From NCBI GenBank assembly GCA_003163855.1, contig PLRJ01000193.1, positions 17,839 through 62,754 of the forward strand: DNA of 44,916 nucleotides. Direction: 5' to 3'. This DNA is from Bryobacterales bacterium (lineage in GTDB: Bacteria; Acidobacteriota; Terriglobia; Bryobacterales; Bryobacteraceae). Position 1 is the stretch's first letter, and each line of letters starts with the position of its first letter. Position numbers and translations under genes: made by a program. The notes beneath the pieces were generated by a model, which saw nothing but the letters and a program-made list of their open reading frames with translations, had not been told where the DNA came from and made no database searches. This document shows, piece after piece, positions 11,462 through 14,852 of this stretch.

Positions 11462-12901
11462 TCAATATTTCGGGACGGATTTGTCGACCTTGTCGCTCCA
11501 GGCGTTGATGCCGCCTGTCATGTTGCGAACATTAGTAAAACCCTGCTGCTTCAGTAAGTCGACCGCCTGCTGGCTGCGGCCGCCCATTTTGCAGTGCGCC
11601 ACGATCTCGGCATTTTTGTCCAATTCGCCCAGTCTGGCCGGGAGTTGGCCTAAGGGAAGCAGTGTCGCTCCTTCAATGCGGGCGATCTGATACTCGTGCG
11701 GCTCGCGCACGTCCAGCAGCAGAAACTTGTCGCCGCGGTCTAACTTGCTCTTTACTTCTACTGGATCAATGACACCATGGGCCGCCGGTATTGGATTTGC
11801 CACTGTTTTCACTCCACAAAATTCCTGATAATCGATCAAATGCTTTACAGTCGGGTTGTCGCCGCACACGGGACACTCACGATCGCGCCGCAGCTTCAGC
11901 TCGCGGAAGCGCATGCTGAGAGCATCGTACAACAACAAGCGGCCTTTCAAGGTCTCACCGATACCGAGGATGATCTTTACCGCCTCGGTTGCCTGGATGA
12001 CGCCGATGACACCGGGCAAAATTCCGAGCACTCCGCCCTCAGCGCAACTGGGAACCAAGCCAGGGGGAGGCGGTTCCGGATAGAGGCAGCGATAACACGG
12101 TCCATCCTGATACGCAAAGACGGTGGCCTGGCCTTCAAAGCGGAAGATGGAACCGTAGACGTTCGGCTTCTTCAGAAGCACGCAGGCATCGTTCACCAGG
12201 TAGCGGGTGGGAAAGTTGTCGGTGCCATCTACTACGAGGTCGTAATCGCGCAGAATTTCCAGCGCGTTCTCACTTGTGAGGCCGGTATCGAACTTGTCGA
12301 TTTCGATATGCGGATTGATATCGCGCATGCGGTCGGCTGCGGAATCGAGCTTTTTGCGCCCGATGTCGCGCGTGCCGTGAATCACCTGTCGCTGCAGGTT
12401 GCTGACATCAACGACATCGAAATCGACCAGCCCGATGCGCCCCACGCCGGCCGCCGCCAGATACAAACCGAGAGGAGCGCCCAAGCCACCCGCGCCGATC
12501 ATCGCTACCTTGGCTTGCTTCAGCTTCAGTTGCCCGGCCATTCCGACCTCAGGGAGTATCAGATGCCTGCTATAGCGCGCCACTTCTTCCTTGGTGAGCG
12601 CGGCCGCGCTTGCCTCCGCTACGGCATTGCTGCCGCCGGCGATGCTAGGCACGATGGAAATGATTTCCGGCCCCTCAAGCCTGGTCGATTCCTTGTCCAG
12701 GTAACGAATGTCTTCGTCGTTGACGTACACATTGACAAAGCTGCGCAGCTTGCCTTGATCGGTGTACAGATTCTTGCGGACGTTGGGGTAGCGCGTGGTG
12801 AGTTCGCCGAGCGCCTCGCCCACGGTAGCGCCCTGAACTTCAATGGAGTCGCTTTGTTCGGTGAACTGTCGCAACGCAGTCGGGATTAGAATTTTGGCCA
12901 T
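11462..12901 (-). CDS. Fusion of CysO/MoaD-like sulfur carrier, MoeZ/ThiF-type E1 and rhodanese
   Basis: The 479-residue protein has three domains in one chain. Residues 1-90 are a ubiquitin-fold sulfur carrier closest in pattern to mycobacterial CysO (FVNVYVNDEDIRYLD; IISIVPSIAGG). Residues 105-360 are the adenylating enzyme, with ARYSRHLILPEVG, ATP loop GAGGLG at 136-141, zinc Cys pairs at 269/272 and 343/346, and CAEGGVLG at 286. Residues 375-479 are a rhodanese with active Cys437 in HCKMGGRS. The E1 would adenylate a carrier C-terminus and the rhodanese would supply sulfur to form a thiocarboxylate. Gly89-Gly90 is internal and followed by Ser91, so the carrier cannot be charged without cleavage. 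The start at 12901 lies inside the upstream JAMM gene (16-base overlap). The longer frame from 13006 is only the JAMM gene in another frame. Confidence 0.9.
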   Translation of the reverse strand: MAKILIPTALRQFTEQSDSIEVQGATVGEALGELTTRYPNVRKNLYTDQGKLRSFVNVYVNDEDIRYLDKESTRLEGPEIISIVPSIAGGSNAVAEASAAALTKEEVARYSRHLILPEVGMAGQLKLKQAKVAMIGAGGLGAPLGLYLAAAGVGRIGLVDFDVVDVSNLQRQVIHGTRDIGRKKLDSAADRMRDINPHIEIDKFDTGLTSENALEILRDYDLVVDGTDNFPTRYLVNDACVLLKKPNVYGSIFRFEGQATVFAYQDGPCYRCLYPEPPPPGLVPSCAEGGVLGILPGVIGVIQATEAVKIILGIGETLKGRLLLYDALSMRFRELKLRRDRECPVCGDNPTVKHLIDYQEFCGVKTVANPIPAAHGVIDPVEVKSKLDRGDKFLLLDVREPHEYQIARIEGATLLPLGQLPARLGELDKNAEIVAHCKMGGRSQQAVDLLKQQGFTNVRNMTGGINAWSDKVDKSVPKY

Positions 12902-13311
12902 TTCAGTTCCTCTGACGCAGCGGCAGTCTGGTCCATGTCCGGCAGAAAGCTGGCCGCATGATCGAATTTTCCACGCTGCACCGAGAGTACAACGAACGAG
13001 TACCACGGGCAGGAGTTTTTCAAGTCGGTTTCCGAGAAGTAGGCGTCGCAGTCGGGATGGGAGTGAAAGATGCCGAGCAGATCGAGTCCGCGCTCACGCG
13101 CTGCGCGCTCGGCAGCCAGCAGGTCCTCGGGCCGCAGTTCATAGCGCGCCTGCTTCTGGCCGACAAAAGCATTTTCGAGCGGTATGGCTTCGGTCACTCG
13201 CTTCAGATCTCCCTGCACATGTCCCAACATGGCACCGCAGCACTCATCCGGATAGGTGCGTTCCGCATGCAGCACCATCGTCTGCCAGGGTGCGTCTTCG
13301 ATCTCGATCAT
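12886..13311 (-). CDS. JAMM/MPN metallopeptidase (Mec+/QbsD-like)
   Basis: This 141-residue single-domain protein is of the Mov34/MPN/PAD-1 fold. The zinc motif is complete: Glu23 in YPDECCGAMLG, His83 and His85 in FHSHP, then Ser93 and Asp96 in YFSETD, with the spacing HxH-x7-S-x2-D. Small bacterial members release amino acids or short tails from the Gly-Gly end of ubiquitin-like sulfur carriers: Mec+ frees cysteine from CysO, and QbsD trims QbsE. Its 3' end overlaps the start of the carrier-E1-rhodanese fusion by 16 bases, so the carrier Gly-Gly-Ser junction of that fusion is the obvious candidate substrate (inference). It begins one base after the EpsI gene ends. Confidence 0.92.
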   Translation of the reverse strand: MIEIEDAPWQTMVLHAERTYPDECCGAMLGHVQGDLKRVTEAIPLENAFVGQKQARYELRPEDLLAAERAARERGLDLLGIFHSHPDCDAYFSETDLKNSCPWYSFVVLSVQRGKFDHAASFLPDMDQTAAASEELKWPKF

Positions 13312-13312
13312 T

Positions 13313-13969
13313 TCAAGCCGGCAGATACTGCTTCAAAGGCAGGAAGAAACTTTGGACGAACTGCGTGGCGGTGTCCATGGCGCGATTGACATTTCCGTTG
13401 TCTACACCCACTACAACGCGCACCAGCGCTGTGTCGCTTCGGTTGTATCGGATGGCGTCGCTGATGGTGTAAAACTTGGCAGCGTATTCGCTGGCAATGA
13501 CGCGATTGTGCGACTGATACCAATACAAAACTACGCTCTGGTTCTCGCCGCGCGCCACAATGTAACGGTTCACTGTTATGGGCTGGCTCTGGCCGCTGAT
13601 GGGGATGCTGACCACGCCCGATTGCGAGGGCACCCAGCCGCTCCCCGGCAGACAGTTCTTCGGCGAATGCGGCGCCTTGCCGGTGCGCTGGGTCTCGAAA
13701 TAGGCAATGAATAAGGTTGCGAAGCTGCCGTTATTGCGATTCTGATAGATGCGCGAGGTAATGTCGTCGGCTTTCAGAACCTCAAGCGTGTCTTTGTCGA
13801 GTTGCTGGTCCTGCATCATCTGCCACGGGGTGTCGTTCAACGTGAAGTAGGCCAGCGGCTGACGGTGCGGCACCACTTCGGTGCGCGAAAAGCCATAGAA
13901 AACGCCCGCTTGGGCCAGCAGAACGACGGATAAAATCCGGGCGCTTTTTGAACTCAAAAATCCTGCCAT
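13313..13969 (-). CDS. EpsI family exosortase-associated protein
   Basis: The 218-residue protein has an N-terminal membrane/signal helix (ARILSVVLLAQAGVFYGF) and a periplasmic domain typical of EpsI/exosortase C-terminal partners. The markers are LAYFTLNDTPWQMMQDQQLD early, GSGWVP, a central NRYIVARGENQSVVLYWYQS with the conserved YWYQ motif, and a late VRVVVGVDNGN segment. In most systems EpsI is fused to or next to the exosortase; here its gene starts five bases after the exosortase stop. Its biochemical role in protein sorting or polysaccharide export is not settled. It is the second gene of the four-gene run that ends with the JAMM and carrier-E1 genes. Confidence 0.87.
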   Translation of the reverse strand: MAGFLSSKSARILSVVLLAQAGVFYGFSRTEVVPHRQPLAYFTLNDTPWQMMQDQQLDKDTLEVLKADDITSRIYQNRNNGSFATLFIAYFETQRTGKAPHSPKNCLPGSGWVPSQSGVVSIPISGQSQPITVNRYIVARGENQSVVLYWYQSHNRVIASEYAAKFYTISDAIRYNRSDTALVRVVVGVDNGNVNRAMDTATQFVQSFFLPLKQYLPA

Positions 13970-13973
13970 AAAA

Positions 13974-14852
13974 CTATTTTTTTCCGAAACGCGCAGCCGC
14001 CATGCTTAGTAGACGGTGGCACACTACCAAGGCTACCAGCGCGACCAGAAAGACGATGTAGCCTTCCGCTTCATGGTAGACGCCGCTGGCGAGTTTGGTG
14101 TCAATTTCGGAGAGCAGGCCGGTGACAGCCACGCGGATACCGTTGGCGCCGATGGCAATGGGAATTGTGGCCAGCAGCAGTGCCCAGCGCATCCAGACGC
14201 GCTTATCGGTGAAGTAGCTGTAGACCAAAGACAGGAAGAGGAGCGATAGGAGCGATCGTATGCCGCTGCAGGCGTCGACGATGTCAAGCGTCTGGCTGGG
14301 CAGCTTCAGCGTGTTTCCTTCGCGCAGCACCGGAATGCCCATGGCGGTAATGAGAATTTCGCCCAGTTCGCTTGCAAACATCTGCAGTTTTAATGTAAGC
14401 GCGGAATAGATGATGGCCGGGATGGGAATCATGAACAGCAGCAGCGCCAGCGGAAAGCTGAGCAGCTTGAGCCATTGCGTTCCGCCTAGAAAGAGCACTG
14501 TGCCGGTCAAGGCGACTAAGAAGGACAGGCGCGCGGTGAACAATTCCACGCCCAGGGTGGCAATAACGGACATGAGGCCGCCCAAAAGCACCAGCGCCAA
14601 GCCCCACCAGTTGGTCCGGCACGGGGTTTCTGCAAGTATCTGCCGCCGCTGCCAGACGATATAGCCAGCCACTACGGGAACGAAGAAGCCGTGGCCCATG
14701 TCGTCGTCGGTGGCCCACTGGTTGGCCATGCGGTAGAGAATGGGGGCGTAACAAGTAATGAGCAGGAGCCCGAACCACGCTACGGGCAGCCAGGCTATGC
14801 GCGCGGGATTACCGGCGGCGGAGGAAGAATCGGCTAAAGGCGTTGTGGCCAT
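13974..14852 (-). CDS. Exosortase (PEP-CTERM sorting transpeptidase)
   Basis: This 292-residue polytopic membrane enzyme has about eight hydrophobic segments. It is the predicted cysteine transpeptidase that recognises PEP-CTERM signals and transfers the cleaved protein to an envelope acceptor. The catalytic residues expected for the family are present: Cys195 in VDACSGIRS, Arg240 in GANGIRV, and His260 in GVYHEAEGYIVF. The conserved early motif DDMGHGFFVPVVAGYIVW is at 50-67. Its only substrate visible in the window is the PEP-CTERM protein at 934-1650. It is the first gene of the minus-strand operon and is divergent from the S55 protein gene, with about 90 bases between starts for both promoters. 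Confidence 0.95.
   Translation of the reverse strand: MATTPLADSSSAAGNPARIAWLPVAWFGLLLITCYAPILYRMANQWATDDDMGHGFFVPVVAGYIVWQRRQILAETPCRTNWWGLALVLLGGLMSVIATLGVELFTARLSFLVALTGTVLFLGGTQWLKLLSFPLALLLFMIPIPAIIYSALTLKLQMFASELGEILITAMGIPVLREGNTLKLPSQTLDIVDACSGIRSLLSLLFLSLVYSYFTDKRVWMRWALLLATIPIAIGANGIRVAVTGLLSEIDTKLASGVYHEAEGYIVFLVALVALVVCHRLLSMAAARFGKK

Follow-up and report, generated by a model that had tools for sequence, protein, structure and literature searches.

Organization of the locus

The window, i.e., the whole 44,916-nucleotide stretch of Bryobacterales DNA analysed here, encodes on its minus strand a sulfur carrier that is continuous with an E1 enzyme and a rhodanese, preceded by an overlapping gene for a JAMM peptidase. 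The following features were assigned:

11462–12901, minus strand: carrier-E1-rhodanese fusion gene, 479 aa (ORF and Pfam; stop codon at 11462–11464)
12632–12901, minus strand: CysO/MoaD-type sulfur-carrier domain, residues 1–90 (Pfam ThiS; closest solved chains 4n6e_B and 3dwg_C)
12632–12637, minus strand: Gly89-Gly90, with the putative scissile bond Gly90|Ser91 at 12631/12632
12605–12631, minus strand: linker, residues 91–99 (no conserved column in alignment A1; pLDDT <50)
11807–12604, minus strand: E1 (MoeZ/MoeB-type adenylyltransferase), residues 100–365 (Pfam ThiF; Foldseek Uba4, MoeB and ThiF)
11492–11764, minus strand: rhodanese domain, residues 380–470 (Pfam Rhodanese; alignment A1)
12908–12913, minus strand: AGAGGA, putative Shine-Dalgarno-like element for the fusion gene (read by eye; within the JAMM gene)
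12886–13311, minus strand: JAMM (Prok-JAB) peptidase gene, 141 aa (Pfam Prok-JAB, 85.6 bits; 16-base overlap with the fusion gene)

Pfam assigned residues 4–90 of the fusion protein to the ThiS family (42 bits; gathering threshold 22.5), residues 110–345 to ThiF (281 bits) and residues 380–470 to Rhodanese (72 bits), in agreement with the first-pass annotation, which had described a carrier of 90 residues ending in SIAGG and followed by Ser91 and a linker to the E1. Both solved chains closest to the carrier, 4n6e_B (1.8e-14) and 3dwg_C (6e-14), which we take to be CysO proteins, have their last residue aligned at Gly90. The window carrier as encoded possesses no free C-terminal Gly-Gly; Ser91 and 388 residues lie beyond it. 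For the E1 part, matches were obtained to MoeZ, MoeB and Uba4. Among the NCBIfam models, MoeB PRK08762 (score 489, cut-off 449) and PRK05690 (321, cut-off 266) were matched above their cut-offs, and MoeZ PRK07878 (510, cut-off 647) and MoeB PRK07411 (572, cut-off 633) below them. Cys437 of the rhodanese and five cysteines of the E1 region are invariant in 66 aligned fusions; catalytic residues of both enzymatic domains are conserved. A GTG start giving an ORF of 514 codons was dropped for the ATG at 12901, a start also found in a related locus (L035); the spacing between AGAGGA and the carrier ATG is 6 nt (by eye).

The overlap of 16 bases reported earlier for the two genes was recovered at 12886–12901. 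Likewise, the JAMM motif (E23, H83, H85, S93, D96) is complete as described, and its columns are invariant in 100 aligned sequences comprising the window and 99 of 120 other candidates. The pattern HxHx7SxxD is present in all 155 JAMM matches above 100 bits across the loci. The AlphaFold model of the window protein has a mean pLDDT of 96.2; 2kcq is its closest solved relative by sequence (4.7e-19), and Foldseek matches of the model include the PfJAMM1-SAMP2 complex 5lda and the CsRpn11-ubiquitin complex 6fno. Zinc-dependent cutting after Gly-Gly is the predicted activity.

A MoaD-MoaE fusion with the junction PPVSGG|SVPAL (Pfam ThiS and MoaE) is encoded on another contig of the window genome (C63; L122:1018–1743, minus strand). 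Only a single Prok-JAB protein was found in this genome, which is 89 % complete, and the window JAMM protein is therefore a candidate to cut both the window fusion and the MoaD-MoaE fusion.

Distribution of fused and separate carriers

Loci were collected as the best 80 of a longer list from a genome-contig scan, supplemented by 40 and by 38 further ones, with two duplicates removed. The final set of 165 carriers, the window counted once, contains 95 in frame with an E1, 67 encoded separately at no more than 700 nt from an E1, and 3 remaining ones. A carrier domain common to two rows, with different sequence after it, occurs in two pairs (L068/L073 and L257/L282). Since loci entered the set through similarity to the fusion or through manual selection, the frequencies given here are not population estimates and very diverged fusions may escape; as rows are related, p-values do not stem from independent tests. 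The 95 fusions belong mostly to Acidobacteriota, the arrangement being found in many soil bacteria, and with recurrence in so many loci the fusion does not represent a chance event. Some match to the window fusion protein was obtained in 375 of 396 genomes of the phylum, often to the E1 or rhodanese alone, and 15 of the 38 further loci have an E1 without adjacent carrier match.

If the tether itself were what mattered, separate versions would be expected to be scarce or distinct. A quick tree was built from 141 E1 domains, 94 from fused and 47 from separate loci; it carries long-branch warnings, and its branch support deserves less trust. It contains 17 changes between the fused and the separate state, and well-supported branches force at least 7 of these. 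Compared to a mean of 39.5 changes upon shuffling, this number indicates that the state is also inherited. Production of carrier and E1 one to one, as proposed in the first-pass annotation, does follow from the fusion, but close relatives with separate genes show that such supply is not essential.

Fusions were also observed on contigs labelled Acidimicrobiia, Euryarchaeota, Hydrogenedentes, Bacteroidetes, Kiritimatiellae, Chthonomonas and Thermoplasmata (L049, L074, L078, L080, L081, L083 and L091), reflecting either horizontal spread or wrong binning. In genome G267, a single 617-residue frame (L020:1501–3351, minus strand), which may contain an internal start, comprises JAMM, carrier, E1 and rhodanese; this is the only such four-part frame in the loci scanned.

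Conservation of the Gly-Gly junction

Gly-Gly is kept in all 95 fusions as well as in all 67 separate carriers beside an E1, and Pro, Ala, Gly and Gly of the motif PS(I/V)AGG are invariant in 94 fusions. No fusion among the 95 has Gly-Gly replaced with the rest conserved. Column entropy in the fusions is 0 at AGG and 1.9–3.5 bits at positions +1 to +8; the step from Gly90 to the next residue leads from 0 to 1.9 bits in the fusions and to 3.4 bits in the separate carriers. Residues 89–99 of the window protein are predicted to be disordered (AlphaFold pLDDT <50).

These features bear on an alternative already raised in the first-pass annotation, according to which the carrier never leaves the E1 and serves there as a docking or regulatory domain, free carriers being the true substrates and the JAMM peptidase acting elsewhere. 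The window genome indeed encodes a separate ThiS in addition to the MoaD-MoaE fusion, and the accessible text of PMC1779556 reports ThiF proteins that carry a Ub-like domain at the N-terminus, regarded there as unlike ThiS in role. A docking domain would, however, have no reason to keep Gly-Gly, which precedes an unconserved, predicted-disordered linker in 95 of 95 fusions, and close relatives possess separate homologues, with at least seven switches forced in the quick tree. This alternative has lost ground and is regarded as highly improbable.

The residue at +1 is Ser in 41, Ala in 35, Val in 10 and Thr in 4 of the 95 fusions, with others in 5. Ser thereby accounts for 41/95 residues at +1 versus 30/652 at +2 to +8, and Ser or Ala for 76/95 fusions versus 18/67 separate carriers. 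Arg, Lys, Leu, Phe, Trp or Tyr occur at +1 in 2/95 fusions compared to 54/652 at +2 to +8 (p = 0.03, a weak dip) and in 19/67 separate carriers. The preponderance of Ser and Ala at +1 of the fusions is counted as a signature at the predicted bond. Mec releases cysteine from CysO, and on one reading the bias would represent a preference of the peptidase, Ser and Ala resembling in shape the Cys released by Mec. On another reading, the released E1 would begin with residue +1, and large or basic residues at this position would act as degradation signals. The difference between fused and separate carriers at +1 is unexpected for one type of enzyme with a narrow P1' taste cutting both.

All 67 separate carriers within 700 nt of an E1 continue past Gly-Gly with 1–26 unconserved residues, a feature that was absent from the first-pass annotation. 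Capping is thus the rule in this carrier family, whatever the cap, and the E1 is the largest of the caps. For comparison, the best 30 of 46 ThiS matches in 60 genomes of the same phylum (L189–L218) were inspected visually: 18 end in Gly, 9 are short-tailed and 3 (L200, L203 and L208, by our own reading) run into ThiG-like sequence. Extensions are accordingly found in 67/67 separate carriers versus 12/30 ThiS proteins (Fisher p = 5e-12; related rows, hence no independent tests). Since ThiS proteins of the phylum are also extended (9/30 short-tailed plus 3/30 running on), an extension alone is no proof of JAMM processing. Three carriers are exceptions to the rule of a tail and an adjacent E1. 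In L154, which also encodes a fused copy, a second, solitary carrier (L154:9274–9537, minus strand) ends exactly at AIAGG; L271 has a weak 18-bit carrier match ending at Gly-Gly; and the carrier of L244, with a two-residue tail, is located 1235 nt from the E1.

Co-occurrence with the JAMM peptidase

Where the flank extended over 700 nt or more, a JAMM gene is located on the same strand within 700 nt upstream in 85/91 fused and 58/66 separate cases (143/157). In three others it lies farther upstream (L112, 701 nt; L076, 1560 nt; L114, 1038 nt). For the remaining 11, a Prok-JAB protein is encoded elsewhere in the genome: this applies to a first group (L128, L129, L130, L131, L062, L165 and L145), for which Prok-JAB was present in 10 of 10 genomes queried and in which L062 matches G014 in the carrier, and to L048, L096, L100 and L107 (4 of 4 genomes). 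The genome check suggested at the outset was whether a JAMM gene always accompanies the fusion. For 157 of 157 loci with sufficient flank, fused and separate taken together, a JAMM gene was found near the carrier or at another place in the same genome. The proximity in 143 of 157 loci also argues against a carrier that never leaves its E1. The JAMM gene occurs beside separate carriers with similar constancy and is therefore no specific companion of the fusion.

Sixty genomes sampled evenly across the phylum were compared: a JAMM match (E ≤ 1e-12) was present in 19/20 genomes with a fusion match at E ≤ 1e-150 and in 5/40 otherwise (Fisher 3.7e-10), the E ≤ 1e-150 cut having been chosen after the table was seen and such matches mostly reflecting the E1-rhodanese, often without a fused carrier. 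Genome G055 combines a strong E1-rhodanese match with no JAMM at E ≤ 1e-12 and no carrier beside the E1.

N-terminal extensions of the JAMM frame in L009, L013, L014, L023, L056, L060 and L091 were rejected as protein fusions, since they look like an upstream gene read out of frame. Except for L009, the extended frames have a cysteine-synthase-type match just upstream in a different frame; frames with IGNTPL were detected in L013, L014, L023 and L056, and no frame contains both cysteine-synthase and JAMM domains.

The constancy of the JAMM gene where the carrier is separate would also fit a different protease as the agent of cleavage at Gly90, with the JAMM enzyme confined to the role of Mec, recycling the carrier by release of cysteine from CysO-Cys; moreover, the protease cutting MoaX is called unidentified in the accessible part of PMC4326299. 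Yet with all separate carriers tailed, a trimming enzyme would be needed there as well, and the adjacent JAMM enzyme is the parsimonious choice. That JAMM enzymes are capable of such cuts is demonstrated by DRJAMM and CsRpn11 (see below), and the four-part frame of L020 unites JAMM and carrier. Cleavage by a different protease is therefore considered unlikely. The cut after Gly90 by the JAMM enzyme, as originally proposed, is a prediction from sequence that the comparison supports well (invariant Gly-Gly, tails on all 67 separate carriers beside an E1, drop in conservation at 90/91, JAMM gene).

Pathway context

In loci with 1800 nt of flank, a cysM-type gene, encoding a PLP enzyme of the cysteine-synthase type, is located within 1000 nt upstream in 49/65 fused and 53/64 separate cases; matches are weak in L150, L249 and L250. 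This link to cysM, which the first-pass annotation did not contain, usually places the gene at the operon head and points to cysteine synthesis of the CysO type. The cysM-type protein of L037 has E. coli cysteine synthase B as nearest solved chain, matches mycobacterial 3dwg_A at 1.9e-52, and has TIGR01138 (cysM) as best NCBIfam model, under its cut-off (332, cut-off 394). Further neighbours in 99 loci longer than 9 kb are cysteine desulfurase-like (9), MetY/MetB-like (9) and Rrf2-type regulator (11) genes, named by our own reading of the sequences rather than by family search.

In the window genome (89 % complete), operon-type cysM was absent from the matches, the best being CysK at 44 %. CysE is present, so that the ordinary cysteine route exists there too. 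The sister genome G396 harbours an operon-type cysM at another place, 67 % identical to the L037 copy. For the family, a role in cysteine synthesis is likely; for the window strain it is less certain. Directly upstream of the window JAMM gene and on the same strand, genes for an exosortase and EpsI (13313–14852) occupy the position of cysM in other relatives; the gene order in L035 is alike (by eye).

The freed carrier might instead serve mainly in protein conjugation or tRNA thiolation, similar to SAMP or TtuB, with the JAMM enzyme also removing conjugates. NCBIfam models for SAMP1, SAMP-activating E1 and desampylase match the respective parts of the window proteins, each under its own cut-off, and the window genome has CysE and CysK in place of a detected operon-type cysM. 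The carrier is nevertheless nearest to chains that we presume to be CysO proteins, and a cysM-type gene is found upstream in most relatives and elsewhere in the sister genome. A main function in conjugation or thiolation thus appears rather doubtful, albeit conceivable.

Relation to known systems

In QbsE/QbsD and HcyS/HcyD, a JAMM enzyme removes the tail of a sulfur carrier up to Gly-Gly; the tail comprises a few residues there, whereas the cap in the window fusion is a whole enzyme. A similar cut of a beta-grasp precursor is made by CsRpn11, which according to the accessible text of PMC6043591 cleaves precursor ubiquitin right after Gly-Gly, in that case in a ubiquitin-type system and with a nine-residue tail. 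The accessible parts of two further reports describe MoaD-MoaE fusions cut behind the carrier: MoaX, cleaved between Gly82 and Ser83 (PMC4326299), and DR2607, cleaved by DRJAMM of Deinococcus (PMC8832034). These share with the window the N-terminal carrier in a fusion, the Gly-Gly|Ser junction (MoaX) and a JAMM agent (Deinococcus). They differ in the cap, which is the sulfur-using enzyme there and the carrier-loading enzyme in the window.

The mycobacterial cysteine pathway consists of CysO, MoeZ, CysM and Mec (PMC3227635, accessible part). Its counterparts here are the CysO-near carrier, the E1-rhodanese, the Mec-like JAMM protein and, in the operons of most relatives, the cysM-type gene. Mycobacterial CysO, however, is a separate protein ending at Gly-Gly (alignment with 3dwg_C), while the carriers studied here are capped, in the window by their own E1. 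Operon type 4c of Iyer 2006 (PMC1779556, accessible text) has the gene set of the present carrier-E1-rhodanese/JAMM/cysM loci, namely ThiS/MoaD, E1-rhodanese, JAB and cysteine synthase, and includes 'Susi', read here as the acidobacterium Solibacter usitatus. The same text suggests a possible role of JAB in releasing ThiS/MoaD from fusions with other proteins. It describes the E1-rhodanese fusion; no carrier-E1 fusion or tail on a separate carrier was seen in the text passages covered. A published description of the carrier-E1-rhodanese fusion was not found in the part of the literature searched, which included text passages of PMC1779556. The operon has been on record since 2006, as has the suggestion that JAB releases carriers from fusions, and cleavage of MoaD-MoaE is a tested precedent. 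Accordingly, the mechanism is old and the cap unusual: the parts are familiar, and the joining of a carrier to its loading E1 is uncommon.

Proposed mechanism

Overall, it appears probable that the JAMM peptidase cuts the fusion after Gly90 and thereby frees a CysO-type carrier for its own E1. From the comparisons described above we infer the cleavage, its agent, the chemistry and cysteine as the product. The fusion would represent a pro-carrier, its C-terminus blocked by its own E1-rhodanese in the same chain. An internal Gly has no free carboxylate and hence does not allow adenylation, so that the fusion as made should carry no sulfur. Cleavage would release the carrier with Gly-Gly as its C-terminus and leave an E1-rhodanese whose first residue is Ser91. 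The E1 would then adenylate Gly90, and the rhodanese Cys would pass on sulfur to form the thiocarboxylate, to be used by cysteine synthase. Probably, the JAMM enzyme would also free cysteine from the carrier and thus recycle the latter.

If this pro-carrier model holds, a sulfur carrier would be made in an inactive form, capped by its own E1 and switched on by proteolysis, and the JAMM protein of a widespread bacterial operon would gain a role in maturation beside the release of cysteine. More tentatively, and with clearly less confidence, the E1 might inhibit its own substrate by capping it. This would make the fusion a zymogen of the sulfur-transfer pathway, in which one JAMM site would both activate the fusion and turn the cycle by releasing cysteine from carrier-Cys. 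Ser or Ala at +1 might mimic the cysteine attached to the carrier in the carrier-Cys adduct and also stabilize the freed E1 N-terminus, the abundance of JAMM or zinc might gate sulfur flow, and L020 could represent a self-maturing version.

The caps observed on this one carrier family form a natural series from one residue to a whole enzyme, which suits tests of what a JAMM enzyme accepts after Gly-Gly. Within this series, Cys is present in 22/67 tails of separate carriers versus 3/95 fusion linkers. Tails in L252–L260, L265 and L282, most of which stem from family f2, are often rich in Cys (CCR, TNCCL, SACCSCCPLL).
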